43,424 nucleotides of DNA from assembly GCA_016783605.1 (NCBI GenBank), contig JADHWG010000009.1, positions 1 through 43,424 on the forward strand, given 5' to 3'. The notes beneath the pieces were generated by a model that saw nothing but the letters and a program-made list of their open reading frames with translations, was not told where the DNA came from and searched no databases. The position numbers were made by a program, and so were the translations under genes. Positions 13,794-38,025 of the stretch are shown here, one piece after another. Source of the DNA: Candidatus Omnitrophota bacterium (GTDB taxonomy: Bacteria > Omnitrophota > Gorgyraeia > Tantalellales > Tantalellaceae). Within the stretch, counting starts at the first letter, position 1; every line of letters begins with the position of its first letter.

Positions 13794-14675
13794 ATGACAA
13801 AGAGCGCGGGAATGACACTTAATCAAAAACACCCCACTTGGATACGCGCCAGGATCTCAACGAATGAAGATTATCTCGGCGTTCAAAAAATTCTCGAAGA
13901 TAAAAACCTTAATACCGTATGCGCGGAAGCGGCCTGTCCCAATAAAGGTGAATGCTGGACCCGGCGGCATGTTACATTTATGATCCTTGGGAAAGTCTGT
14001 ACGAGAAAATGCCGGTTTTGTAACGTCTCCGCCGGTGTTCCCGAGGCGGTAGATCCCGGCGAGACAAAAAGGATCGCCGAGGCGGTTCAAGCCTTGCGTT
14101 CGGATCATGTTGTCATAACTTCCGTCACACGCGACGATTTGCCGGATAAAGGCGCAAATCAATTCATACGCGCGGTGGAAGAAATTAGATCCCGCGCCCC
14201 AAACACAAAAATAGAACTTTTAATTCCGGACTTCGCCGCGGATACCCAACTTCTAAAAAGAATCGCTTTAACCGGCGCGGATATCATAGGACACAATATC
14301 GAGATGCCTGCGGCGCTATATCCCGAAATAAGACCGGAAGCGGACTATAAAACGTCTCTGGAAGTGCTGAATATTCTAAATTCGATGAAAAATGCCGGAG
14401 CGCCTATTTTAGTTAAATCATCAATGATGCTGGGCTTAGGTGAGACGGAAGAAGATATTCTGCTCACATTCAAAGATCTAAAAGAAGCGGGAGTCGATAT
14501 TCTCTACGCCGGCCAATATCTCGCCCCATCCAACCGCCACTGCCCCGTCAAAAAATACTATACCCCCCAAGAATTCAAATTTTTCCGCCAAAAAGCGACC
14601 CAATTAGATTTTCTCCAAATAGAAATAGCCCCAATGATAAGAAGTTCATACCAAACTCCCGATTCCACCTCGTAG
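13794..14675 (+). CDS. lipA: Lipoyl synthase
   Basis: The 293-residue radical-SAM enzyme inserts sulfur at C6 and C8 of protein-bound octanoate. The auxiliary [4Fe-4S] site is C43, C48, C54 (CAEAACPNKGEC), the radical-SAM cluster is C69-x3-C73-x2-C76 (CTRKCRFC), and the C-terminal RSSY serine ligand lies at about 286-289. ILVKSSMMLGLGETEEDI is also typical. A likely client in this window is GcvH; LplA lies 14 kb away. AAGGAG at 13780-13785 favours ATG 13794, but both this site and the first eight codons come from dispersed-repeat sequence (CGGGAATGACA motifs). The alternative ATG 13812 is also possible; both precede the conserved domain. No octanoyltransferase LipB is in the window. Confidence 0.97.
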   Translation: MTKSAGMTLNQKHPTWIRARISTNEDYLGVQKILEDKNLNTVCAEAACPNKGECWTRRHVTFMILGKVCTRKCRFCNVSAGVPEAVDPGETKRIAEAVQALRSDHVVITSVTRDDLPDKGANQFIRAVEEIRSRAPNTKIELLIPDFAADTQLLKRIALTGADIIGHNIEMPAALYPEIRPEADYKTSLEVLNILNSMKNAGAPILVKSSMMLGLGETEEDILLTFKDLKEAGVDILYAGQYLAPSNRHCPVKKYYTPQEFKFFRQKATQLDFLQIEIAPMIRSSYQTPDSTS

Positions 14676-14783
14676 GTGGAACGTATTGTGATGCGGGCAC
14701 ATGCAATGTGCCCCTACGGGTTGGCGGGGGTGTCCCACCAAAGTGATAATGTCCTATTTTAGAAACGTAGGTTTCAACCTACG
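14663..14783. repeat. Two family A hairpins flanking a family B palindrome
   Basis: TTCCACCT-CGT-AGGTGGAA at 14663-14681 starts inside the last codons of lipA. GGGCACATGCAATGTGCCCCTAC lies at 14695-14717. A second small family A copy, CGTAGGTT-TCA-AACCTACG-like, is at 14766-14783. All fall between lipA and the promoter of the giant gene. Confidence 0.8.
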
Positions 14784-14804
14784 AGGTTGTTTTAGGGGAT
14801 TTTG

Positions 14805-14834
14805 TTGTAAAAACTATCTTTTTGAGAGTATAAT
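14805..14834 (+). promoter_or_regulatory. Probable promoter of the giant gene
   Basis: TATAAT at 14829-14834 matches the -10 consensus. The -35 candidate is TTGTAA at 14805-14810, four of six consensus bases, at 18-bp spacing. The predicted 80-nt leader contains a small hairpin, GGTCGG (14860-14865) with CCGACC (14873-14878). Shine-Dalgarno complementarity before ATG 14924 is poor (TTAGG only). Confidence 0.6.
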
Positions 14835-14923
14835 ACTTTTTCGAAAGAATTATTTGCGAGGTCGGAAGTTTCCCGACCACTCAATTATTTAGTTCAAATT
14901 TTTTTAACCCCAAAAAGTTAGGC

Positions 14924-17900
14924 ATGAAAAAAAGAAGATATAATCCAATTTTAATGATAGCGAAGTGCGTGACGATGATGGTATTTTTTTCATTTTCACA
15001 AACTGCGGTTTCTTGGCCGGAGTCATGTTCGGGTATTTCGTCTCGGAATACTGTTCTTCAGGCACAGGGTATTTTGCAGGAAAATCGGGTTTTGGTCGAA
15101 TTAGAATTAATTAAGATGATGGCGTTGAAGAACTATACGTTTTCTGAAATAAACGCGGCATTGGATGAGTGTTATCATGAAAAAGGTACCAAGAGGAGTC
15201 TGTTACATATGACGCAGATTCCTAAAATTAACGGGAATAGCATGCAAATAGAAGTTAAATTTTTGCGAGGTACAAAAAAAGGAAGGACGATTAGATTAGT
15301 CTTGCCGTGTAAAGATTTAAAAAGGGTAGAAAATGGTCAAAATAATGTAAAAAGCGAGACTCGTAACGAAGACTATCTTGTCCATATAGGCGCGGAAATA
15401 AAAGATGGAAAACGAATTGGTGGGGAACTTATATCCGTGGGAGGTAATCGAAAAACTTTATACACGCTTATTATGGAATATCCTGATTGCGTTATAGAGA
15501 AAATGAGACTAAACAGTGAGGGAGGTTTTTCATTTAACAAGGAGAATTACTGGACGGTAATGGCAGGATATAAAAATGCTTTGGTTTTAGTAGAAGTAAT
15601 TAAAGGCCGGACAATGAGGGTTTATGATGAGAAGGGCAACAGGCTTTATCCCCCGGAGAAAAATCTTGTCTATATCAATGCTGAAATCACCGATGGCAAA
15701 AGGATTGGAGGTGAATTGATCGGCAGTGCTTTCACAACGGCAGAACTGAATAAAATAATTGCAGAACATTCTCATTGCGTTGTAGAAAGAATTAAATTAG
15801 GAATTAACGGGAGGTTTGGTTTTAATAATAAAGTTTATTGGCAGACAATGGCGGGATATAAAAATGTTTTAGTTACAGTGGAAGTCATAAACGGTCAGGC
15901 AGTGGGTGTGTATGATACACGTGGATTAAAACTATACCCTGCCAGTGAAAATCTTCTTTTTGTTGGAGGGAGAATCAAAGATGGGAAAAGAGTTGGCGGT
16001 GAATTCGTAAGCGGGACTTTGCATAAACTAGAATTAAATAAAATGATTAAAGCAAATCCTGACTGTATTATAGAGAAAGTCAGACTAACTAAACAGGGAG
16101 GGCTTAAGATCAATAAGATATGCTATTGGCAGACAATGCCGGGATATGAAAATGCTTTGGTTACAATTGTGATAGCTCAAGGTCGGGTAAAAGATGTGTA
16201 TGGTCCGCGAGGCGCTTGCATATATCCACTTAGTGAAAATTTTGTTTATGTTAACTCGCAAATCAAAGAAGGAAAAAGAGTTGGCGGTAAGTTTGTGGAA
16301 AGCAGGAGCAATAAAGACAGTCTTAATTGGCTGGTCAAAAAATATCCGAGTTGCATCATAGAAAAAGTAATATTGAATAAAAAAGGCGGGCTATTATTGA
16401 ACAGGAAATCCTATTGGTATTCAATGCCGGGATATGAGAATGCCCCGGTTACGATAGAAATGGCGGAGGCGGATGTAAAGAAAGTCTATGACAAGAAAGG
16501 AATTCAAATATATCCGTTTAACAAGAATCATGTTTATATTAATGCGAAAATTAAAAATGGGAGAAGAAGCGGTGGTGAGCTCACGAGAACTGCGGGTAGC
16601 AGAAAAATGTTAAATAAGCTAATTGAAAAATATCCTGATTGTGTTATAGAAAAAGTAAAATTAGACTGTGATGGTGGACTAACATTTAACAAACAATGTT
16701 ATTGGTCTATGCTGAAGTTTTATGAAAATGCTTTTGTTATGGTGAAGGTAGTAAATGCCTGGGTAATGGAGGTGTATGATGAGGGTGGTATACAATTATA
16801 TCCGTTTTGTGAAAACCAGATCTATATGAATGCGATAATTAGAAACGGGACAAAAGTTGGCGGTATTTTTATCGGCATTGCCTCTGACGAAAAACAATTA
16901 ATCCGGTTAATTAATGAATATCCCGATTGTGTTATAACAAAAGTAAAACTAAACGGCAGGGGAGGTTTTGAGTTCAATGGCAAGACTTATTGGAAAGAGA
17001 TGCCGGGACATGAAAACAGTTTTGTTACCATAGGTTTTAAAAAAGGTGAAATAACAGGAATATACGACGAACAAAGAAGCCGACTATATCCCGCGAAAAA
17101 AAGCCAGATTTATACTAACGCCGAGATTAAAAATGGGAAAAGGATTGGAGGTAACTTTGTCGGGGAAGTGGGTAATCAAAAAGAACTAAAGAGGATGTGC
17201 AATATATATTCCGATTGCGTAATAGAAAATTGGCAGCTTGGGATTTATGGCAGATTTCGTATTAACAAAGAACTTTTGTGGCACAGAAAAAAAGGATATG
17301 AAAATGCGAAACTTACAGTAGCAATAGTAGAGGGCAAGGTAACGCGAGTGTATGATAAACAAGGCGGATTAGTATATCCTTTTGAAAAAAACTGTGTTTT
17401 TACCGGCGCAATAATTAGAAGAGGAAAAAAGGTTAATGGCGAATTTGTGGGAAGCGCGGAGAACGCGGAAGAATTAGGTAAGATGGTCAAAAAATATCCG
17501 AATTCTATTATCGAAAAGGTTTCATTGGATTCGAAAGGTGGTTTTGAGTTTAATGGCAAGACTTATTGGAAAGAGATGAAAGGGTATGAGAATGTTCTTG
17601 TTACAATCGAGATCGTGAATGGAAACGTTACAAGTGTACATAACGAACAATGTGTTTGTTTGTATCCGGCTGATGAGAATCTTTTTTTTGTTAATGCCAC
17701 AATTGAACATGGAAAGATGATAAGTGGTGAATTTATAGCTAAAGGCAAAAGCAAACGTGAATGTTGTAAGCTTATCGCAGAATACCCCAACTGTGTTGTA
17801 AGTAAGAAGCGACTAAATCCCAAAGGTGGATTGATTTTTAATAGGAAGATTTATTGGCAAGGAATGAAGGGGTATGAAAATAGTTTAGTTTTAGTCGAGG

Positions 17901-20900
17901 TTAAGGATGGCGAGGTAATAGCGGTATATGATGAGGGTGGTAAAAGGATACATCCTTTTACGGAGAATTATATTTATGTCGATGCTGAAATCAAAAGTGG
18001 AAGAAGAGTTGGTGGAGAGTTTATCGGTACCGCTAATAACAAAAAAAAATTGAATTCAATTATATCAAAAAATACCGGCAAAAAGTTTGTTATAGAAAAG
18101 GTTAAGTTGGATCAAAAAGGTGGGTTGGAATTTTTCAAAAAAACTTGCTTTCGGGCATTGAAGGGGTATGAAAACGCTTATGTTACATTAGAATCAGAAA
18201 ACGGCAAGGTTATAAATCTTTATGATGAACAGGGAACATCATTATTTTTAAAAGATGAAAGCAAAGTTTATGTAAATGCGGAAATAATGAACGGTAAACG
18301 AATGGGAGGTGCATTTGTTGGCAGGGGGATTAACAGGAAACGTTTAGGTATACTCATCAACAGATATCCTGATTGTGTTGTAGAGGGGGTAAAGTTAGAC
18401 AATATTGGCAGTTTAAAACTTGATGGTAAATGTTACTGGAATGGATTGAAAGATTATGAAGGTGCTTTGATTACAATAGAGATAGCAAATGGAGAAGCAA
18501 TAGGCGCATATGATGAAAAAGGTAAACAAATATATCCGGCTAAAAGAAACATGGTTTATACTAATGCCGTTATTAAAGACGGGAAAAGGGTCGGCGGTGA
18601 ATTGGTGGATACGGCTATGACTGTAAACGGTTTGAACAGTGTTATTACAAGGTACCCGTATTGTATTGTAGAAAAGCTAAAACTTTCTAAGGAAGGTGGG
18701 TTAAGGCTTAACGGTAAATATTATTGGAAAAGCCTGTGTGAGCATAAAAACGCGATAGTAACAGCAAAAGTAGAAAATGGAGAGGTAATAGAGGTATATG
18801 ATGAAAAAGGAAAGCAAATATATCCGGCTAAGGAAAACATGGTTTATGTTAACGCAAGTATTAAAGACGGGAAAAGAGTGGGCGGTGAATTTATAAGTAG
18901 TCTCATGAATAAATCAGGTTTGAATAAGCTTATCCAAAAGTATCCCGACTGTATAGTAGACAAGTTAAGGGTTGATAGAAAAGGTGGGGTTTGTTTTAAC
19001 AATAAGTGGTATTGGCATGCGAAAAAAGGGTATGAAAATGCCTTTGTTACAGTGGAGATAGTGAATGGTGAACCGGTAGGCATATATGATGAACAAGGAA
19101 TCCAATTATTCGTGGAAAAAGAGGACCAGACGGCAAGGGGTATAAAAATTTATAATAAGCTGTGGGAGCAGGGGGATATAGAAAAACTTATGTCGCTTTT
19201 TGGAAGGGAAAGTTCTAATCGTATTCTTTTACGTTTTTTTGATTGTTTTACCCCTGAAAGTTTGCTTTATCTTTCAGAGCGGTTTCTGCATTCCTTACCA
19301 ATACGTCAGAAAAAAAGAATAATGAATAGAAAAAAATATGAAACAAATTCTGATAAAATTTTTGAGCAAATCGGCACAATAAAGATGTTCCAAGAAGAAA
19401 GAGAATGGACGGATCTTGAGATTCTTACGGATGAGCTGATAAAACTGGTCTATTCTCATGTTGCAAAAGATTACTTGTTTTTAGATAAATTAAAAAAACA
19501 GACTGCGTACAATGCTAAAGTCAGTTCTTTTTTAAAGAATGCCTATAGGAACACCATAAAACATTATGGACAACTGGGGGAATTTGTACCTGGCGGTATT
19601 CAAACAAGTACTCAACTCAAGTTTTATCAAAAGATGGGGATAAAATTTATTCTGGACAAAAAAAGAGTAATACTTGCGGATGAACCCGGGTTAGGGAAAA
19701 CAGTGCAAGCACTTGTTTCTGCTGTAAACGCTTATGGAGGAAGAGGCGCTAGAAAAGTACTTATCTTATGTCCGCGTATATCTAAAATTAATGTATGGGA
19801 AAAACAGATAAATGAGCATTTACGCGGAGAACAAGAAGTGATGATAATTAATAAGAGGAAAAGTTTGGATTCTTTGTATGGTAAGAATAAGGCAAAAAAG
19901 GCAAGGTTTATTATAGCTAATTGTGAGCTTATTAGAGGTCCCGGAGGCAAAAGGTTATTGGAAAACATAACAGATTTAGGAATAGATTTTCAAATTATTG
20001 ATGAAGCCCACAGAATGCGAAATGATTCTCAACTTGCAAAAGCAGTAATGGACTTGGATCCTGATAGTGATGTCCCTTATAAAGTCCTAATAACAGGAAC
20101 GCCTCTGGTAGGAAGGCGTCCTGCCAAGTTGTTTAATCTTTTCCACTTGCTGTATCCTGAAAGGTATTCAAATAAAAAGATGTTTAAGAAAAAGTGTGAT
20201 GGGAAGAATGGAGTTGTGTGGTTGAAGAATGAAATGAAATTTTTTGTGATACGACGATATTCCTCTGATGTTTTGATTAATTTGCCGGACTTGAACGTTG
20301 AGATAAGACCTGTAGACATGCCAAAAGAGCAGGCCGATTTATATCGTAAAATAGAAAAAAATATGATGCAGGATGAATATGTGCCGTTAGGTTTTCGGTT
20401 GGATTTATTGAAACGGGCGGCAACGGATACTCGACTTGTAAAAACCTTACTGTTTACTGATATCGAGACGGGGGAAAAGCAAGAGATGAAACCCGGGACG
20501 TATAGCATTGTTATAGGAGGGGTTCGTTATAGACTCAACATTAATGACAGTAAGAAAAAAATTGATATATCCTTATATCTCGAAAAAACAAACACAAAAG
20601 TTAGAAAACAAATGATTCATTATGGAGATACCACTATTCTGGGAGGGAAAAGATATAAAGTGGACGTAATAGAAAGACCTTCTTATTCGGCTAAATACGA
20701 TATGTTGGACGCTATTGTACAAGATGTCCTTAATGATAAACACGAGAAGCTGGTGATATTTACAAATATTGTAAAAGTGGTGCAAGATCTTAAACTGCGG
20801 TATGAAGGCAAAGGATATGAAGTGATGTGTATGCATGGAAAAGTTAGCACTGCCCAAAGGGAGAGCATAATAACGGAATTCAACAAATGCGAAAGGCCGA

Positions 20901-23557
20901 TAATCTTTATAAGCACTGCTCAAACCGGAGGTGAATCTATAGAATTATTTGGCGCTCATTATGGCGCGTCGCTGAATGAACCATGGACACACCAGGAGCG
21001 TGCGCAGAAGATTAGAAGACTATATCGGTTTGGACAAAAAGACGATGTTACTTTCTACATAATACAAGCACGAAGGACCATAGATGAAAGGATAGAAAGT
21101 ATTATAGCGCAAGGAGAGTTTTTAGAAAAAATTATTCTTGATGATCCTGACTGGACATACAACAGTCAAAGTGAAATAGCTGAAAAGATTTTAACGAAAA
21201 AAAAGGATTATGAAAAAGATCTTTTTGCTTTACAAGAGATTCAAAAAAAGACCAGATCTCAACAGAAAATGAACAGTAAAGAAGAAATTGAAGTGCCGTT
21301 TTTTGACAGTATAAAAAAAGGGTCCGAATTATTCATACAATACAAAGAAGGCGTATTCGAAAAAAGACTTCTGTTAGAGGACGGGACGGTAATAAAAGAG
21401 GCGAACATTTCTGAGATTTTAATAAATCTTGAAAAACTTTCTGATGATTCGAAGGAACTTTTAAAAGATTTTTTTATGCAAAGATTTGATTCAGAATGCC
21501 GAAAAAAGACAAAGGTTAAGGATATGATTTTGTGGTATGTTTGTACGGAATTGATCCCTGGATTTAAGGACATAGATTATCACGGAAGATTGGAATTAAT
21601 GATAGAGACAGGTACTTATGTGGTGCGAAAAATCATAGAGACTCATGATGTGGGGGAGGAGGAAATACGTGGTGAACTTGGAAATGTTTCCACGAAACTG
21701 TATGAGGACGCGATGTACTATCTGGATAGTGCTAACATATTGAAATTTTTTTCATACATAGGTCTGATACCTCAAACATATTATTATGAAGGAAAACTTC
21801 TTAAATATACTCCGCCTATCAAGGTATATTTCAGCCATGGGAACAAAGAGTATTCCGGTGAGAAAATCGTTCGCGGCGGCATACGGTATTATGATGAAAA
21901 AATAGTTGAGAATATAGCGCCTGAGTGGCGACGAAAAGAATCCGAAATTTCTTCCAGGATAACGGGGTTTAATCGGGATTCAGAAGGAACTAGAAAATTG
22001 AATCGTTCGGAAGAAATACGGTTAGCGCGCCAGTTAGAACTGGGAAACAAAGCGGCAGAGATTGTTTTGGTAGGGGCTTATTTAAGAGACGTTTTACCGG
22101 TCGCGAAAAAGCTAAAAAAAATGCTGTATTTCAGATTTGGATCCAAATTGGCAAACGCGGCGGAAATAGATGAAATCTGTGATGTTGGCAGAACTATACT
22201 GATGGATTTAGTGAAAAGATATGCTGAATTCGGAGCTTATGAAACTCAGCCGCTAAAAGACTATTTACAAAGCCGGCTTACCCCGAGAATGTATGGATGG
22301 GGATATAAAAGGATAAACGAAATTAAAGAGCTGACGGCTGACAACGGGGCATATGGAGGAAAGGATGATGAGGAGCCTACGCGAGTAGATCTGGAAAGGG
22401 AAGAAGCTGTAGCATCGGTTGCCGTAGCTGAAAAAGAAACTATGGATATTATGGAACAGTTACTTCAAACAAAAGGGTTTAATGATACAGAGATTCGCGT
22501 AATAGAATCATTTGTTTACGAAGGATACACAGAGCAGGAACTTATGGATTGGACAGATGAAAACAATTTCGGAGTGTTCGGAAAAGATGAGATTAAGGCA
22601 ATTATCAGCCGTTTCCAAAACTTCATAACGAATATGGGTAAAGCCCGGTTTAAAGATATATTGGAAAATGGTCTTGGATCAGATTTTGAGATAAAAAAGG
22701 ATCAAGTTTACAGCAAACAAAAACATATTAGTGATAAAAATCATGATGTTTTTTCTGTATTAAAAACTGGTTTGATGAATATGTCTTGTAAACATTCCAT
22801 AGATATCGTAGTAGACTTATCCTTAATGCCCGAGGGAGCATCGGACGCATTACACAAAAGCATTGATACCTGGGCGCATCTTATTTTATTATGCAAAGAT
22901 TTTGACAACGTAGATTTTATTTTTGAAGACACAGCCACTTTTGTTGAAGGAAAGGAATTGCCGTCTCATTTAGACGCCAAAGGAGGAACAGCAAAAAAAA
23001 GGATGGTATTAGAATCCCTAAGATCCGCGATACGGGATAAAGCAATATTTTTTGGAGAAGATAATGGAAGAGAAGAACTTATAGCAAATCGCGTTAGAGG
23101 ATGTCAAAACCGAGAGAGAAAAGAGACAAAAACAACTATTGAAATACCTATAATTTCTATAGAACTTGCGGAATGGATGAGGGATGAAGACATAAAATTA
23201 GAAGACAGGCAGTATCCGGTAGTAATGGAAACAGGCTTTTTAGGTTATGAGGATGGGATCGCAATAGGAGATTTTGAGTCCGCGTTAATGATCGGTTTGG
23301 CTAAAGCTTGTTTAGTGATAGCTAAAAATAAGAAACAAAGAATCCTCATCAAACTTGATGGTCTATATAGAGCGATTAGGCGAGAGGAAAATCACATAAT
23401 ACTTACTGATGAGCTTCTTGAATACATGATAGACGCAAGTTCAAGACACAGGTTAAATCGAGCCATAGATTTTTGCATACCGCCGATTACTTGTATGCCG
23501 GTTGATCAGATACAATATTCTCATGAGAACGCGCGAGAATTTCAGCTTAACATGTAA
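14924..23557 (+). CDS. Giant chimeric protein: 13 tandem repeats, SNF2-type ATPase, sigma-70-like segment
   Basis: 2,877 residues, signal-peptide-like at 1-30 (MKKRRYNPILMIAKC...SQTAVS). Residues 153-1402 are 13 tandem repeats of 96 residues (one of 98), starting V/IY-x-NA and ending YPAxEN. After a helical linker, a SNF2/SF2 helicase core spans about 1560-2090: Walker A GLGKT (K1592), DEAH (1693-1696), ITGTPL, and ISTAQTGG followed by RRLYRFGQK (R2035, motif VI). A small beta-rich insert sits at about 1844-1922. Residues about 2359-2575 resemble sigma-70 regions 1.2-2 and 4 in degenerate form. The C-terminal 250 residues may match the end of the 806-residue protein at 35605-38025. ATP-driven DNA translocation or remodelling is plausible, but a signal peptide on such a protein is odd. 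The gene is visibly more AT-rich than its neighbours, suggesting different history. Function unknown; all helicase motifs are intact. Confidence 0.9.
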   Translation: MKKRRYNPILMIAKCVTMMVFFSFSQTAVSWPESCSGISSRNTVLQAQGILQENRVLVELELIKMMALKNYTFSEINAALDECYHEKGTKRSLLHMTQIPKINGNSMQIEVKFLRGTKKGRTIRLVLPCKDLKRVENGQNNVKSETRNEDYLVHIGAEIKDGKRIGGELISVGGNRKTLYTLIMEYPDCVIEKMRLNSEGGFSFNKENYWTVMAGYKNALVLVEVIKGRTMRVYDEKGNRLYPPEKNLVYINAEITDGKRIGGELIGSAFTTAELNKIIAEHSHCVVERIKLGINGRFGFNNKVYWQTMAGYKNVLVTVEVINGQAVGVYDTRGLKLYPASENLLFVGGRIKDGKRVGGEFVSGTLHKLELNKMIKANPDCIIEKVRLTKQGGLKINKICYWQTMPGYENALVTIVIAQGRVKDVYGPRGACIYPLSENFVYVNSQIKEGKRVGGKFVESRSNKDSLNWLVKKYPSCIIEKVILNKKGGLLLNRKSYWYSMPGYENAPVTIEMAEADVKKVYDKKGIQIYPFNKNHVYINAKIKNGRRSGGELTRTAGSRKMLNKLIEKYPDCVIEKVKLDCDGGLTFNKQCYWSMLKFYENAFVMVKVVNAWVMEVYDEGGIQLYPFCENQIYMNAIIRNGTKVGGIFIGIASDEKQLIRLINEYPDCVITKVKLNGRGGFEFNGKTYWKEMPGHENSFVTIGFKKGEITGIYDEQRSRLYPAKKSQIYTNAEIKNGKRIGGNFVGEVGNQKELKRMCNIYSDCVIENWQLGIYGRFRINKELLWHRKKGYENAKLTVAIVEGKVTRVYDKQGGLVYPFEKNCVFTGAIIRRGKKVNGEFVGSAENAEELGKMVKKYPNSIIEKVSLDSKGGFEFNGKTYWKEMKGYENVLVTIEIVNGNVTSVHNEQCVCLYPADENLFFVNATIEHGKMISGEFIAKGKSKRECCKLIAEYPNCVVSKKRLNPKGGLIFNRKIYWQGMKGYENSLVLVEVKDGEVIAVYDEGGKRIHPFTENYIYVDAEIKSGRRVGGEFIGTANNKKKLNSIISKNTGKKFVIEKVKLDQKGGLEFFKKTCFRALKGYENAYVTLESENGKVINLYDEQGTSLFLKDESKVYVNAEIMNGKRMGGAFVGRGINRKRLGILINRYPDCVVEGVKLDNIGSLKLDGKCYWNGLKDYEGALITIEIANGEAIGAYDEKGKQIYPAKRNMVYTNAVIKDGKRVGGELVDTAMTVNGLNSVITRYPYCIVEKLKLSKEGGLRLNGKYYWKSLCEHKNAIVTAKVENGEVIEVYDEKGKQIYPAKENMVYVNASIKDGKRVGGEFISSLMNKSGLNKLIQKYPDCIVDKLRVDRKGGVCFNNKWYWHAKKGYENAFVTVEIVNGEPVGIYDEQGIQLFVEKEDQTARGIKIYNKLWEQGDIEKLMSLFGRESSNRILLRFFDCFTPESLLYLSERFLHSLPIRQKKRIMNRKKYETNSDKIFEQIGTIKMFQEEREWTDLEILTDELIKLVYSHVAKDYLFLDKLKKQTAYNAKVSSFLKNAYRNTIKHYGQLGEFVPGGIQTSTQLKFYQKMGIKFILDKKRVILADEPGLGKTVQALVSAVNAYGGRGARKVLILCPRISKINVWEKQINEHLRGEQEVMIINKRKSLDSLYGKNKAKKARFIIANCELIRGPGGKRLLENITDLGIDFQIIDEAHRMRNDSQLAKAVMDLDPDSDVPYKVLITGTPLVGRRPAKLFNLFHLLYPERYSNKKMFKKKCDGKNGVVWLKNEMKFFVIRRYSSDVLINLPDLNVEIRPVDMPKEQADLYRKIEKNMMQDEYVPLGFRLDLLKRAATDTRLVKTLLFTDIETGEKQEMKPGTYSIVIGGVRYRLNINDSKKKIDISLYLEKTNTKVRKQMIHYGDTTILGGKRYKVDVIERPSYSAKYDMLDAIVQDVLNDKHEKLVIFTNIVKVVQDLKLRYEGKGYEVMCMHGKVSTAQRESIITEFNKCERPIIFISTAQTGGESIELFGAHYGASLNEPWTHQERAQKIRRLYRFGQKDDVTFYIIQARRTIDERIESIIAQGEFLEKIILDDPDWTYNSQSEIAEKILTKKKDYEKDLFALQEIQKKTRSQQKMNSKEEIEVPFFDSIKKGSELFIQYKEGVFEKRLLLEDGTVIKEANISEILINLEKLSDDSKELLKDFFMQRFDSECRKKTKVKDMILWYVCTELIPGFKDIDYHGRLELMIETGTYVVRKIIETHDVGEEEIRGELGNVSTKLYEDAMYYLDSANILKFFSYIGLIPQTYYYEGKLLKYTPPIKVYFSHGNKEYSGEKIVRGGIRYYDEKIVENIAPEWRRKESEISSRITGFNRDSEGTRKLNRSEEIRLARQLELGNKAAEIVLVGAYLRDVLPVAKKLKKMLYFRFGSKLANAAEIDEICDVGRTILMDLVKRYAEFGAYETQPLKDYLQSRLTPRMYGWGYKRINEIKELTADNGAYGGKDDEEPTRVDLEREEAVASVAVAEKETMDIMEQLLQTKGFNDTEIRVIESFVYEGYTEQELMDWTDENNFGVFGKDEIKAIISRFQNFITNMGKARFKDILENGLGSDFEIKKDQVYSKQKHISDKNHDVFSVLKTGLMNMSCKHSIDIVVDLSLMPEGASDALHKSIDTWAHLILLCKDFDNVDFIFEDTATFVEGKELPSHLDAKGGTAKKRMVLESLRSAIRDKAIFFGEDNGREELIANRVRGCQNRERKETKTTIEIPIISIELAEWMRDEDIKLEDRQYPVVMETGFLGYEDGIAIGDFESALMIGLAKACLVIAKNKKQRILIKLDGLYRAIRREENHIILTDELLEYMIDASSRHRLNRAIDFCIPPITCMPVDQIQYSHENAREFQLNM
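15380..19129 (+). repeat. Thirteen tandem 288-bp coding repeats in the giant gene
   Basis: Twelve units encode 96 residues and the tenth encodes 98 (two-residue insertion before FVIEKVKL). The shared pattern is NAxIKDGKRVGGEF, then a helix ending YPDCVIEKVKL, then GGLxFNGKxYW, GYENxLVTVEIxNGEV and VYDExGxxIYP. Divergence is high at both protein and DNA level, except that units 6 and 8 share almost the same FEFNGKTYWKEM stretch and units 11-13 share KxIYPAKxNM. That points to old amplification with some later local exchange. Confidence 0.93.
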
Positions 23558-23565
23558 ATTGTTAC

Positions 23566-23614
23566 CCCCCACCGGTAACCTCGTAGGTTCAACCTACGAG
23601 GTTACCGGCGGGGG
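23566..23614. repeat. Family A inverted repeat abutting the gcvT promoter
   Basis: Arms of 24 bp with one mismatch surround a one-base loop at 23590. The outer arm, CCCCCACCGGTA on the left, is locus-specific. The last base is immediately before the TTGACA of the gcvT promoter. It could terminate the giant gene's transcript, whose stop codon is only 9 bp upstream. Confidence 0.88.
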
Positions 23615-23642
23615 TTGACAATGGGGGGATTTGTTTTATAAT
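23615..23642 (+). promoter_or_regulatory. Consensus promoter of the glycine cleavage operon
   Basis: TTGACA (23615-23620) and TATAAT (23637-23642) are both perfect sigma-70 hexamers at 16-bp spacing. Transcription should start near 23649, giving a leader of about 208 nt before gcvT. A perfect promoter ahead of a long structured leader suggests control after initiation. Confidence 0.85.
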
Positions 23643-23648
23643 GGAGAC

Positions 23649-23856
23649 TGGTGCGACTGGCGTTTTGGTTTGTTTGCATCCAGGATTTTCACTGGATACA
23701 AAGCAGATCATGCCGCGTTTTTTTTGCGGAGTAGCAGGTAACTACGGGGGAGCTAAAGAGGCAAAAATCGAACGCCTGGGTTTTTGCGAAACGGGTTTTG
23801 ACGCGTCAGGAAAATATTTTGACGCGCATCAATAGAAACTGTTCGCGGATGCTCCC
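23649..23856 (+). promoter_or_regulatory. Structured 5' leader of gcvT, candidate riboswitch
   Basis: About 208 nt between promoter and gcvT hold at least five stems: ATCCAG 23678-23683 with CTGGAT 23692-23697; CCGC 23713-23716 with GCGG 23726-23729; GTAG 23731-23734 with CTAC 23742-23745; GCAAAAA 23761-23767 with TTTTTGC 23781-23787; CGCGTCA 23802-23808 with TGACGCG 23820-23826. GGGAGC at 23748-23753 can also pair with GCTCCC at 23851-23856, directly before the gcvT start codon. A glycine or tetrahydrofolate riboswitch would fit the operon, but I could not align either consensus; AGGCAAAAA near 23759 only loosely recalls the glycine aptamer. No canonical ribosome site precedes ATG 23857. Confidence 0.55.
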
Positions 23857-24954
23857 ATGACTATAGCAAAAAACGATCTAAAACGTACCCCGCTCTACAA
23901 CAAACATCTCGCGCTGGGCGCGAAAATGGTTCCCTTTTCCGGATGGGAGATGCCTCTTCAATATACGGGTATAATCGACGAACATATTCATACGAGAACC
24001 AAAGCCGGCCTTTTTGACGTCAGTCATATGGGGGAATTCTTTCTAAGTGGTTCGTCCGCGTCGAGTGAGCTTGATAAATTGGTAACGTGTCGTGTCGATG
24101 ATATGCTTCCGGGAAAATGCCGTTACGGATTTTTGCTTAACGAAAACGGCGGGATCATAGACGACCTTATCGTATTTAAAATTTCACAAAAAGAATTTAA
24201 ATTGGTGGTGAACGCCGGAACTTCGGAAAAAGCCAAAGAATGGATCCTTGATCGCGTTTCTTCAAAAGATATATTTCGTGACGAATCGAAAAATATCGTA
24301 AAACTGGATCTGCAGGGACCGTTATCCGCCAAAGTGATAAATGAGCTTATCGGGACATCTGTCACGGATGATCTCAAAAGATATTGGTTTAAACACATCG
24401 ATTTGGTCGGCGAGCGGGTTTTGTTTTCACGAACGGGATATACGGGAGAGTTGGGTTATGAGTTATTCTTTCCGGTGAGCGCCGCGGAGAAACTTTGGGA
24501 CGCGCTTTTGAGTGCTAAAGAAGTTAAACCGATCGGTCTCGGCGCGCGGGATACTTTGCGGCTGGAAATGGGATACGCGCTGTATGGTAGCGATATAGAC
24601 GAAAACCATACCCCGCTTGAATCAAACCTTAATAAATTTGTGTTCATGGAGAAAGATTTCATCGGCAAACCTGCCTTACTGAGACAAAAAGAAAACGGTC
24701 TTAAGCGTATTTTAAAAGGATTTATTGCCGACGGAAGGCGAAGCGCGCGATGTGGCTTCAAAGTTTTGTCTCCCGAAGGTGAGCGAATCGGAGAAGTTAC
24801 GAGTGCCGCGTTTTCCCCGTGCCTAAAAAAGGGGATAGGACTTTGCTACATAAAAAAAGAGTTCGCCGTCGAAGGCCGTCAAATTATATTAACCGACGGT
24901 AAAACTGAAATTAAAGCAACTATAGAAAGTACCCCGTTCTATAAGCAAGGGTAA
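23857..24954 (+). CDS. gcvT: Glycine cleavage system T protein (aminomethyltransferase)
   Basis: The 365-residue protein transfers the methylene group from aminomethyl-lipoyl-GcvH to tetrahydrofolate and releases ammonia. Typical stretches are KMVPFSGWEMPLQY near residue 23, GLFDVSHMGE near 49, YTGELGYELF near 193, LGARDTLRLEMGYALYG near 227, and the C-terminal barrel with GEVTSAAFSPCLKKGIGL. Length is normal. It starts the gcv gene group, which lacks only the L protein (dihydrolipoyl dehydrogenase). The start at 23857 lacks a clear Shine-Dalgarno sequence and can be paired with an upstream GGGAGC, so translation may be controlled by leader structure. A 261-bp repeat-rich gap separates it from gcvH. 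Confidence 0.97.
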   Translation: MTIAKNDLKRTPLYNKHLALGAKMVPFSGWEMPLQYTGIIDEHIHTRTKAGLFDVSHMGEFFLSGSSASSELDKLVTCRVDDMLPGKCRYGFLLNENGGIIDDLIVFKISQKEFKLVVNAGTSEKAKEWILDRVSSKDIFRDESKNIVKLDLQGPLSAKVINELIGTSVTDDLKRYWFKHIDLVGERVLFSRTGYTGELGYELFFPVSAAEKLWDALLSAKEVKPIGLGARDTLRLEMGYALYGSDIDENHTPLESNLNKFVFMEKDFIGKPALLRQKENGLKRILKGFIADGRRSARCGFKVLSPEGERIGEVTSAAFSPCLKKGIGLCYIKKEFAVEGRQIILTDGKTEIKATIESTPFYKQG

Positions 24955-35604: not shown

Positions 35605-38025
35605 TTATGCCGCCAAATAAATATCTTTGACATTTTCGTATGTTGTTCTCAACTGCTGTGGAGGCATATGGATAGCCTTGGGTAAAACAAGGATCAATTT
35701 ATTCCTGATCATTTTCTGCAATTCTTTTTCGGTCTTTTCTGAAATTTTGTAATAAAAATTTATTATACAATCTATATCTGTTGTTGGCAGAGAAGACATT
35801 ATCAGCAAAGAAAGCGCCTCGAAAACCGGTAAGTATATATCATTTTCGTTACTGGTATCATCTATGGCGGCTATCCATGAATGACCTTCAAGTGATTTGA
35901 ACTTGTTGGTGTCTATATTTTCTTTCCTGGCAACAAGGAATGTCCGTTTCTTATCCAATACACCAGTATCTATTAATTCGTTTAATTTTCTCATCAATTC
36001 ACCCGATGCCCCTTTTTTTCTGATCACTCTGAGATTGGGAAATAACGGATGTCCCCCTTTATCCGTCATTTTTTTAATTTGATCCATAGCTGTGAATACA
36101 GGCATGATACAGGATTTTTGGTCCTCGCCAATATCTGAATCAAATGCGAATGCGAATATTTTTTTTGGTTCTTTTTGTAGCCGGCGCAAAAGATTGTATT
36201 TAAATATTTCCGCACGGAATTCAATCTCTGTATGACTGTTGATAGATGCTTTCTTCTTTTTCTCCGCGTTATCAGCTGTTATCTTTCGTGTTGTTATGTT
36301 TTTATCCTTTTTTTCTTGGTCATTACGCCATATGCTGACCGATTCCGGCGGAACATGATTTTTATAAAGTGTCTTCATAACATCTACGTACGCCATTGGC
36401 GATAGGGTGTCGTCTTCAATCCCATTCATAAATTCATTCGTATCATCCTCAAGGTTAAGGCTACACAGTGTTTTTTCATCACTAAGTTCTGAAAAAGCTT
36501 TATATGCTTTTACTATTTCGATATAGTCTTTCTCTCCTTTTTTTGTTGCGTTTACGGTAATTTCTTTAATTCTCCCTATGTTGTTCTCAGTGATCCCCTT
36601 GGAGCTGAATAAAGTGTGTAAGAAATCAAAAACTATCCATACCCGCTCTGGCGGCAGGTTTTTTACTTCTGGTTTTTCGATTAAAGAGATTAAATAGTCT
36701 ATATCCAGTTTTTCCAGAATATTAGGAAAGTAATACCGGCCTTTTGCGTTTGTTCCTATGTAAGATGCTAATTCTTTCAAATTCTTGAAAGTTTCTCTTT
36801 TAAACATCCCTGCTTCCGCTATTATCTTGCCTATAAGATCAAGGATTTTATTATAATTTTTATCCGTTATTAGCCAGGCCTCTACCAGTGTTTCTATGGC
36901 AAGATATGCTGCATCCTCTTCAATAGCGTTCAAACCCTGTACTCTATCGAGCAGTTTTTTAAAAAAGACACTAACTTCATTATAATTTGTCTGGTTAATT
37001 ATTTTGTACTCAATGAAAGTCTGTAATAACTCCAATATTGGAGGCGCGGACTGCAACTTGAACTTCTCCTTATTCAATTCATAAGACATCCATACTCCTC
37101 CGCAATTTGAGTGCGATCGAGGTAAAAAGTTTTTTGTCTGACGTTTTCCGAAAGATACAGGTATAAGCTCATCATTTTCCGAAGGCTGTATGCCTTCTGC
37201 TTTGTTGTCCGGTTCAAAAATAGTAAAAATAAATCGTTTTACCATATCTTTTTCTTTATCAGGATCAAATCGCTTTCGTTCTATTCTTGACAAACATGCC
37301 TCAGTAAAATTTATGTGCCTGCAAAAGTCCCCCCCCAGTTTTTCCAGTTCTTTTTCATCAAATACTGCCGATGCTATTTCTCCATAAATTATTTTATAAT
37401 CGCTGTCGTCTATTTGGCTGGTTTTACCATCGATCTTTATATGTTCCGAAATATTTTCTCGATATACATACAGGGCAAGCCGCTTGAAAGAGATCCATGA
37501 TAGTGTTTTAGCAAGTTTCAAATCCAATCCAATCAATCCTTCCCTGTTAAAACCCAGCAAATAATCTTCTCGATCCCGCACATCAGTTTTGAATAGGTAC
37601 AGGTTTTCATTACAACAATGATAAAATGAGATCAAATTTTCCAGGGTTTTTTTCGCTCGCTTATGATGTTTTCCCGGTATTTTTCCTTTGTTTAAAATAT
37701 GAAGCTTTATCGCGAGCTCCGTTGCTTCTCTTATGCTTTGAACAATCGGTTGGCTCACGTCTTCAATCCTGATTTTTTGCGGTAATTTACCCTCTGCAAA
37801 ATCCAGCAAAGCTTGCCCATCGGCTATCGCATTGGGTTCAAGTGTCCTGGCTATCTTTTCAAGTCCTTCGATACTTCTATCCGGATTTATATGTTTATCA
37901 TGTACAAGAGAAGCCGCTAAATTCTCATAAGCAAAGGACTGTTGCATGATTTGCCCAAGAATTAATGAAACAATTGATAATGTCGACACGTATCTTCTTA
38001 TTGTTTTTTTGATTTTTTTATCCAT
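35605..38025 (-). CDS. Large exported protein of unknown function, possible relative of the giant protein's C-terminus
   Basis: I do not recognise this 806-residue protein as a named family. Residues 10-32 (STLSIVSLILGQIMQQSFAY) form a signal-peptide or anchor-like segment after a basic N-terminus. The rest is mostly helical and rich in lysine and glutamate, looking cytosolic in composition. The last 200 residues alternate strands and helices (KKIFAFAFDSDIG, LFPNLRVIRKKG, KRTFLVARKEN, SWIAAIDD) and end LVLPKAIHMPPQQL. That order and ending resemble the last 250 residues of the giant protein at 14924-23557 (FCIPPITCMPVDQI). The gene is AT-rich like the giant gene. It has a perfect consensus promoter and AAGGAGG eight bases before ATG 38025, so it is likely well expressed. 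Confidence 0.85.
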   Translation of the reverse strand: MDKKIKKTIRRYVSTLSIVSLILGQIMQQSFAYENLAASLVHDKHINPDRSIEGLEKIARTLEPNAIADGQALLDFAEGKLPQKIRIEDVSQPIVQSIREATELAIKLHILNKGKIPGKHHKRAKKTLENLISFYHCCNENLYLFKTDVRDREDYLLGFNREGLIGLDLKLAKTLSWISFKRLALYVYRENISEHIKIDGKTSQIDDSDYKIIYGEIASAVFDEKELEKLGGDFCRHINFTEACLSRIERKRFDPDKEKDMVKRFIFTIFEPDNKAEGIQPSENDELIPVSFGKRQTKNFLPRSHSNCGGVWMSYELNKEKFKLQSAPPILELLQTFIEYKIINQTNYNEVSVFFKKLLDRVQGLNAIEEDAAYLAIETLVEAWLITDKNYNKILDLIGKIIAEAGMFKRETFKNLKELASYIGTNAKGRYYFPNILEKLDIDYLISLIEKPEVKNLPPERVWIVFDFLHTLFSSKGITENNIGRIKEITVNATKKGEKDYIEIVKAYKAFSELSDEKTLCSLNLEDDTNEFMNGIEDDTLSPMAYVDVMKTLYKNHVPPESVSIWRNDQEKKDKNITTRKITADNAEKKKKASINSHTEIEFRAEIFKYNLLRRLQKEPKKIFAFAFDSDIGEDQKSCIMPVFTAMDQIKKMTDKGGHPLFPNLRVIRKKGASGELMRKLNELIDTGVLDKKRTFLVARKENIDTNKFKSLEGHSWIAAIDDTSNENDIYLPVFEALSLLIMSSLPTTDIDCIINFYYKISEKTEKELQKMIRNKLILVLPKAIHMPPQQLRTTYENVKDIYLAA

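Follow-up and report, generated by a model that had tools for sequence, protein, structure and literature searches.

The N-terminal domains of CHD1 and RapA are SH3-like and tether or gate the ATPases of these proteins. Another type of small barrel forms the C-terminal domain II-beta of the Mu-type transposases MuA, IstA and TnsB. In IS21, stimulation of the AAA+ ATPase IstB requires the IstA barrel, which docks onto it, and TnsB engages TnsC via the same domain, for which some contact with donor DNA has been described (PMC11208146). The IstA barrel also stabilises the IstA tetramer (PMC10122671). Omnitrophota encode giant proteins, for the most part without annotation, that rank among the largest known. 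The main text of PMC10066038, which deals with giant ORFs of Velamenicoccus archaeovorus and others, makes no mention of SNF2 or helicase, and none of the papers searched joins Omnitrophota and SNF2. Here we describe an Omnitrophota ORF in which an array of predicted barrels of the transposase kind precedes an SNF2-family ATPase.

The window, by which we mean the whole stretch of 43,424 nucleotides analysed here from a Candidatus Omnitrophota bacterium, carries on its forward strand an 8.6-kb ORF at 14924–23557 that encodes a protein of 2877 aa. The following features were located in it, the repeat units being delimited by the unit alignment.

14924..23557, + strand: one ORF with leader, 13 predicted barrel units, linker domain, SNF2 ATPase, sigma-70-like segment and C-terminal module
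14924..15370, + strand: N-terminal region of 149 aa, residues 1–31 being a signal-peptide-like leader, MKKRRYNPILMIAKCVTMMVFFSFSQTAVSW
15371..15658, + strand: repeat unit 1
15659..15946, + strand: repeat unit 2
15947..16234, + strand: repeat unit 3
16235..16522, + strand: repeat unit 4
16523..16810, + strand: repeat unit 5
16811..17098, + strand: repeat unit 6
17099..17386, + strand: repeat unit 7
17387..17674, + strand: repeat unit 8
17675..17962, + strand: repeat unit 9
17963..18256, + strand: repeat unit 10 (98 aa)
18257..18544, + strand: repeat unit 11
18545..18832, + strand: repeat unit 12, modelled together with unit 13
18833..19120, + strand: repeat unit 13, modelled together with unit 12; the top-scoring IstA match falls on its predicted barrel half
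19121..19603, + strand: linker domain between repeats and ATPase, kept in the relatives G303, G120 and G087 (blastp E 1e-9 to 1e-14, and alignment), with no fold assignment
19625..21034, + strand: SNF2-family ATPase, residues 1568–2037 (PF00176, PF00271, motifs, phrog_62, solved relatives)
21371..22723, + strand: conserved post-ATPase region (alignment), of which about 21938–22120 resembles sigma-70 region 1.2–2
22796..23554, + strand: C-terminal module of ~240 aa (22796–23533 when delimited more narrowly), also present at the extreme C-terminus of other large proteins from this family of genomes

The order of the thirteen units, the SNF2 ATPase with intact motifs, the sigma-70-like segment and the C-terminal module is read directly from the translated ORF. 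Judged by hydrophobicity only, the leader resembles a signal peptide, with a KD15 maximum of 2.09 at residue 9, and a hydrophobicity scan found no second strongly hydrophobic stretch in the rest of the protein. Upstream of the gene lie pyruvate:ferredoxin-oxidoreductase-like and lipoyl-synthase-like ORFs (named by eye), and downstream lie glycine-cleavage-like ORFs (by eye), followed by lipoate ligase, PEPCK and SAICAR synthetase (assigned by Pfam). The neighbours are thus housekeeping genes, and no phage genes were seen around the ORF. The GC content at 14001–24000 is 0.35–0.41, compared with about 0.43–0.48 in most of the surroundings, and the GC skew is stronger in the gene; this region may have been acquired or may have evolved fast. 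Elsewhere in the window, an 806-aa ORF on the minus strand (35605–38025) has a signal-like N-terminus and no Pfam match, and adjoins a GHL10 glycosyl-hydrolase-like ORF.

The thirteen tandem units occupy 15371–19120 (+), residues 150–1399, in a single frame. Each unit has 96 aa and a spacing of 288 bp, except for unit 10 with 98 aa and 294 bp. An earlier note on this DNA had placed the array at 15380–19129, about 9 bp late, and was right about the thirteen units and the motifs that it named. The consensus of the units is NxVYxNAxIKxGKRVGGEF...LNxLIxxYPDCVIEKVxL...GGLxFNxKxYW...GYENAxVTxExxNGxVxxVYDExGxxLYP, in which I10, G13, G18 and G51 are invariant; the mean column identity is 58%. The repeat is far beyond chance: searched with the 13-unit profile, further genomes of the phylum also yield it, with E down to 1e-30.

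Of 384 genomes of the phylum searched with the unit profile, 12 gave the repeat, the source genome of the window being one of them. The repeat-bearing ORFs of the relatives range from 765 to 11,104 aa, some of them having 10,000–11,000 aa. The repeats are followed by SNF2 in six relatives (G303, G087, G120, G192, G298 and G301), and the order of repeats, linker, SNF2 and C-terminal conserved region is the same in G303 (a diverged relative, about 35% identical), G087 and G120. In a further Candidatus Omnitrophota contig, L065, repeats, SNF2 and a sigma-like region lie in one ORF. The giant ORF of G120 goes on with DnaJ, AlaDH and radical SAM domains. A length of more than 20 kb is reached by the ORFs of G120 and G301, and the window gene is below it. 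A conserved N-terminal region of ~400 aa with the motif WVNLSPxEKDRI...GRDxLAQDYLLKQ was observed after the leader in L044 (503 onward), L048, L052 and L065; Pfam scans, where run, assigned it to no family.

Units 12 and 13 were modelled together with AlphaFold2 from 48 sequences. In this one model (pLDDT 96, pTM 0.78), each unit consists of a beta-hairpin, a helix and then a small barrel. When the model was compared with 905 chains by VIA-align, the five best rows were all C-terminal barrels of Mu-type DDE transposases, namely two IstA entries (8q4d, Z 5.0; 8b4h, Z 4.0) and three TnsB entries (7svw, Z 4.2; 8rdu, Z 3.8; 8aa5, Z 3.8), aligned to either modelled unit with rmsd of 2.3–4.3 Å over 53–59 residues, and the best unrelated row had a Z of 3.2. 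The best match, to IstA with Z 5.0, gives 2.3 Å over 53 residues, the Z being modest for a barrel of this size. The matched range of IstA, 298–351, corresponds to the published barrel at 300–355 (PMC10122671), which supports a barrel fold for the second half of the units. KOW, Tudor and bacterial SH3 are absent among the VIA-align rows listed. Foldseek E-values of 1.7 to 3.8 are not significant, with IstA and TnsB having the highest probability among the matches listed, and a viral structure library yielded no significant match to the model. The VIA-align rows, with their modest Z and from a single model, support the prediction that the second half of the unit folds like the SH3-like barrel at the C-terminus of Mu-type transposases such as MuA, IstA and TnsB. 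The earlier note had proposed this resemblance together with a structure prediction of two adjacent units as its check; the check speaks for the second half of each unit, whereas in the model a hairpin and a helix, not a barrel, make up the first.

At the sequence level, a family assignment did not hold. Membership in PF09299 is rejected, the concatenated units scoring 20.3 bits against a curated cut-off of 21.7, and only 1 of 61 single units matching in hmmscan, at E 0.09. A Pfam scan of the 2877-aa protein found no rve/DDE domain, PF22483 (cut-off 27 bits) has no match in the source genome of the window, a PDB search with the unit sequence profile returned nothing significant, and a comparison of PHROGs with the units gave no meaningful match. 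In hhalign, an IstA-type barrel profile aligns with the units over the same segments and in the same register, weakly (P 0.03), with a score that is third of 201, 2 of 200 column shuffles being higher. Attempts to deepen PF09299 with viral contigs brought in no more than close relatives, or no sequences at all, and therefore loci from the phylum were used. A barrel of genome G055 scores 27.2 bits with PF22483, over the cut-off of 27, and the family expanded from the tandem barrels of this genome aligns with transposase barrels at P 2e-7. Its alignment with the units, a weak resemblance over 42 columns, has P 4e-4 and outscores each of 100 shuffles. The tandem barrels of G055 form a weak bridge from the units to the transposase barrels. 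The open frame in which four of them stand in tandem (C6 562382–631477) has 23,032 aa and reaches the contig end; methyltransferase-, amylase- and GGDEF-like stretches were noticed in it by eye.

The ATPase that the earlier note had seen after the repeats does belong to the SNF2 family. PF00176 (115.6 bits, E 3e-33) and PF00271 (43.7 bits, E 4e-11) are both over their cut-offs, and SNF2_N and Helicase_C are present with intact motifs I (DEPGLGKT), II (DEAH), III (TGTP) and VI (QKIRRLYRFGQ). The ATPase core is closest to the phage helicase family phrog_62 (E 1.8e-70). Its nearest solved proteins are CHD1, ISWI and DDM1, with CHD1 as the best sequence match, and RapA also matches. A defence system was considered and set aside because the models match only the generic SNF2 core and the neighbours are housekeeping genes. 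The sigma-70-like part has a profile match to SigA over ~64 residues (E 7e-6, or 7e-5 with a fifth sequence); Pfam sigma models are below cut-off in the relatives and have no match on the window protein. In the ORF of G298, a sigma-70-like stretch with FSTYATWWIRQTI was noticed by eye N-terminal to the repeats, on the opposite side from the sigma-like segment of the window protein. In each of the eight loci of relatives with a visible ORF end, within the same family of genomes, the C-terminal module closes a large ORF, and it could be a sorting or anchoring domain. The domains that precede it are otherwise unrelated, e.g. AAA_11/12 or CoaE.

What, then, are the units, and what might they do ahead of a motor? 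They could be a generic SH3-like repeat (KOW, Tudor or bacterial SH3) with a Mu-type likeness by chance, which we consider unlikely. Small barrels converge easily, and in the hhalign controls against the units KOW reached P 0.0017, near the bridge family in strength, so that the sequence by itself does not set the Mu-type barrel apart. However, the KOW alignment covers 16 columns compared with 42 for the bridge, bacterial SH3_3 reached only P 0.075, and IstA and TnsB fill five structural rows before any other fold. A different matter is the function. The earlier note had read the array as an arm that grips DNA, and in this reading thirteen basic barrels would hold DNA non-specifically and confer processivity on the SNF2 motor. 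It draws on the match to barrels of DNA transposases, on an IstA barrel conformer that touches donor DNA (PMC11208146), and on charge: the 13 units sum to a net charge of +54, not strongly acidic by this measure, and basic units also occur in G120 (+8.4 per unit) and in G356 (+5.5). But basic charge is not conserved across the relatives, with net values per unit of +0.4 in G303, -0.3 in G192, -1.0 in G298 and -2.1 in G158. Moreover, the barrel halves of the window protein average only +1.3, compared with +4.1 in transposase barrels, and conservation is highest at glycines, aromatics and hydrophobics, with no invariant K/R column. We now judge DNA gripping distinctly unlikely as the role of the array, and docking or gating beside the ATPase is favoured over it because the charge varies and no K/R column is invariant.

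We propose, tentatively and with a confidence a little short of even, that the barrels of this predicted Mu-type array ahead of a motor serve for multivalent docking, as an arm for tethering or gating the SNF2 ATPase. The thirteen tandem barrels would form a repeated arm in front of the ATPase and would keep a partner, protein or nucleoprotein, beside it, tethering or gating the ATPase as the IstA and TnsB barrels do with IstB and TnsC, and the motor would then remodel a DNA–protein complex or translocate on it. In basic versions of the array, DNA may in addition be gripped non-specifically, but this is not the conserved function. We infer the docking or gating role by analogy with the transposases, and the contact of the barrels with ATPase or partner is putative. 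The leader and the terminal position of the C-terminal module suggest targeting, whereas the ATPase and the sigma-like parts fit the cytoplasm. It is doubtful to us that the protein is an exported or surface scaffold, in which the leader would send the protein across the membrane and the repeats would serve as a spacer, structural or adhesive. A hydrophobic N-terminal leader is found here and in G303, G087, G158, G041 and G356, no strongly hydrophobic stretch follows later, the C-terminal module is terminal wherever the ORF end is seen, and giant ORFs of the phylum have been proposed as adhesins or predation factors (PMC10066038). However, there is little use outside the cell, where ATP is lacking, for an intact ATPase or a sigma-70-like segment, relatives carry the cytoplasmic-type domains DnaJ, AlaDH, radical SAM, CoaE and AAA_11/12, and each unit has one to four cysteines. 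Quite improbable, in our estimation, is a class of SNF2 machines, specific to the lineage and exported or delivered to the surface, that combine tandem transposase-type barrels, motor, sigma-70-like segment and a sorting-like C-terminal module; if true, they would pass the membrane via the leader and act on host or prey nucleoprotein.

With the predicted barrel and the proposed docking arm, one recurring building block of the Omnitrophota giants gains a predicted fold and a testable role. The data suggest that long arrays have arisen, outside any transposase, by expansion of a barrel known from transposases as a single tail. Compared with the barrels of MuA (PF09299), IstA (PF22483) and TnsB, the second half of the unit has the same predicted fold and the same hhalign register; the window protein differs from Mu-type transposases by its 13-fold array and its hairpin-helix, has no DDE domain, and stays below the Pfam cut-offs. 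The phage helicases of phrog_62 are alike in the ATPase core, but the window locus lies among housekeeping neighbours rather than phage genes. Like the giant ORFs of PMC10066038, ORFs of 5,456 to 11,104 aa in the phylum carry the repeat, whereas the window gene, at 8.6 kb, is below the 20-kb threshold used there. CHD1, with its chromodomains, and RapA, with its Tudor-like domains, likewise place SH3-like barrels ahead of an SNF2 ATPase. Different from them, the window protein has thirteen copies rather than one or two, of another barrel type, and adds a sigma-like segment, a C-terminal module and a signal-like leader.
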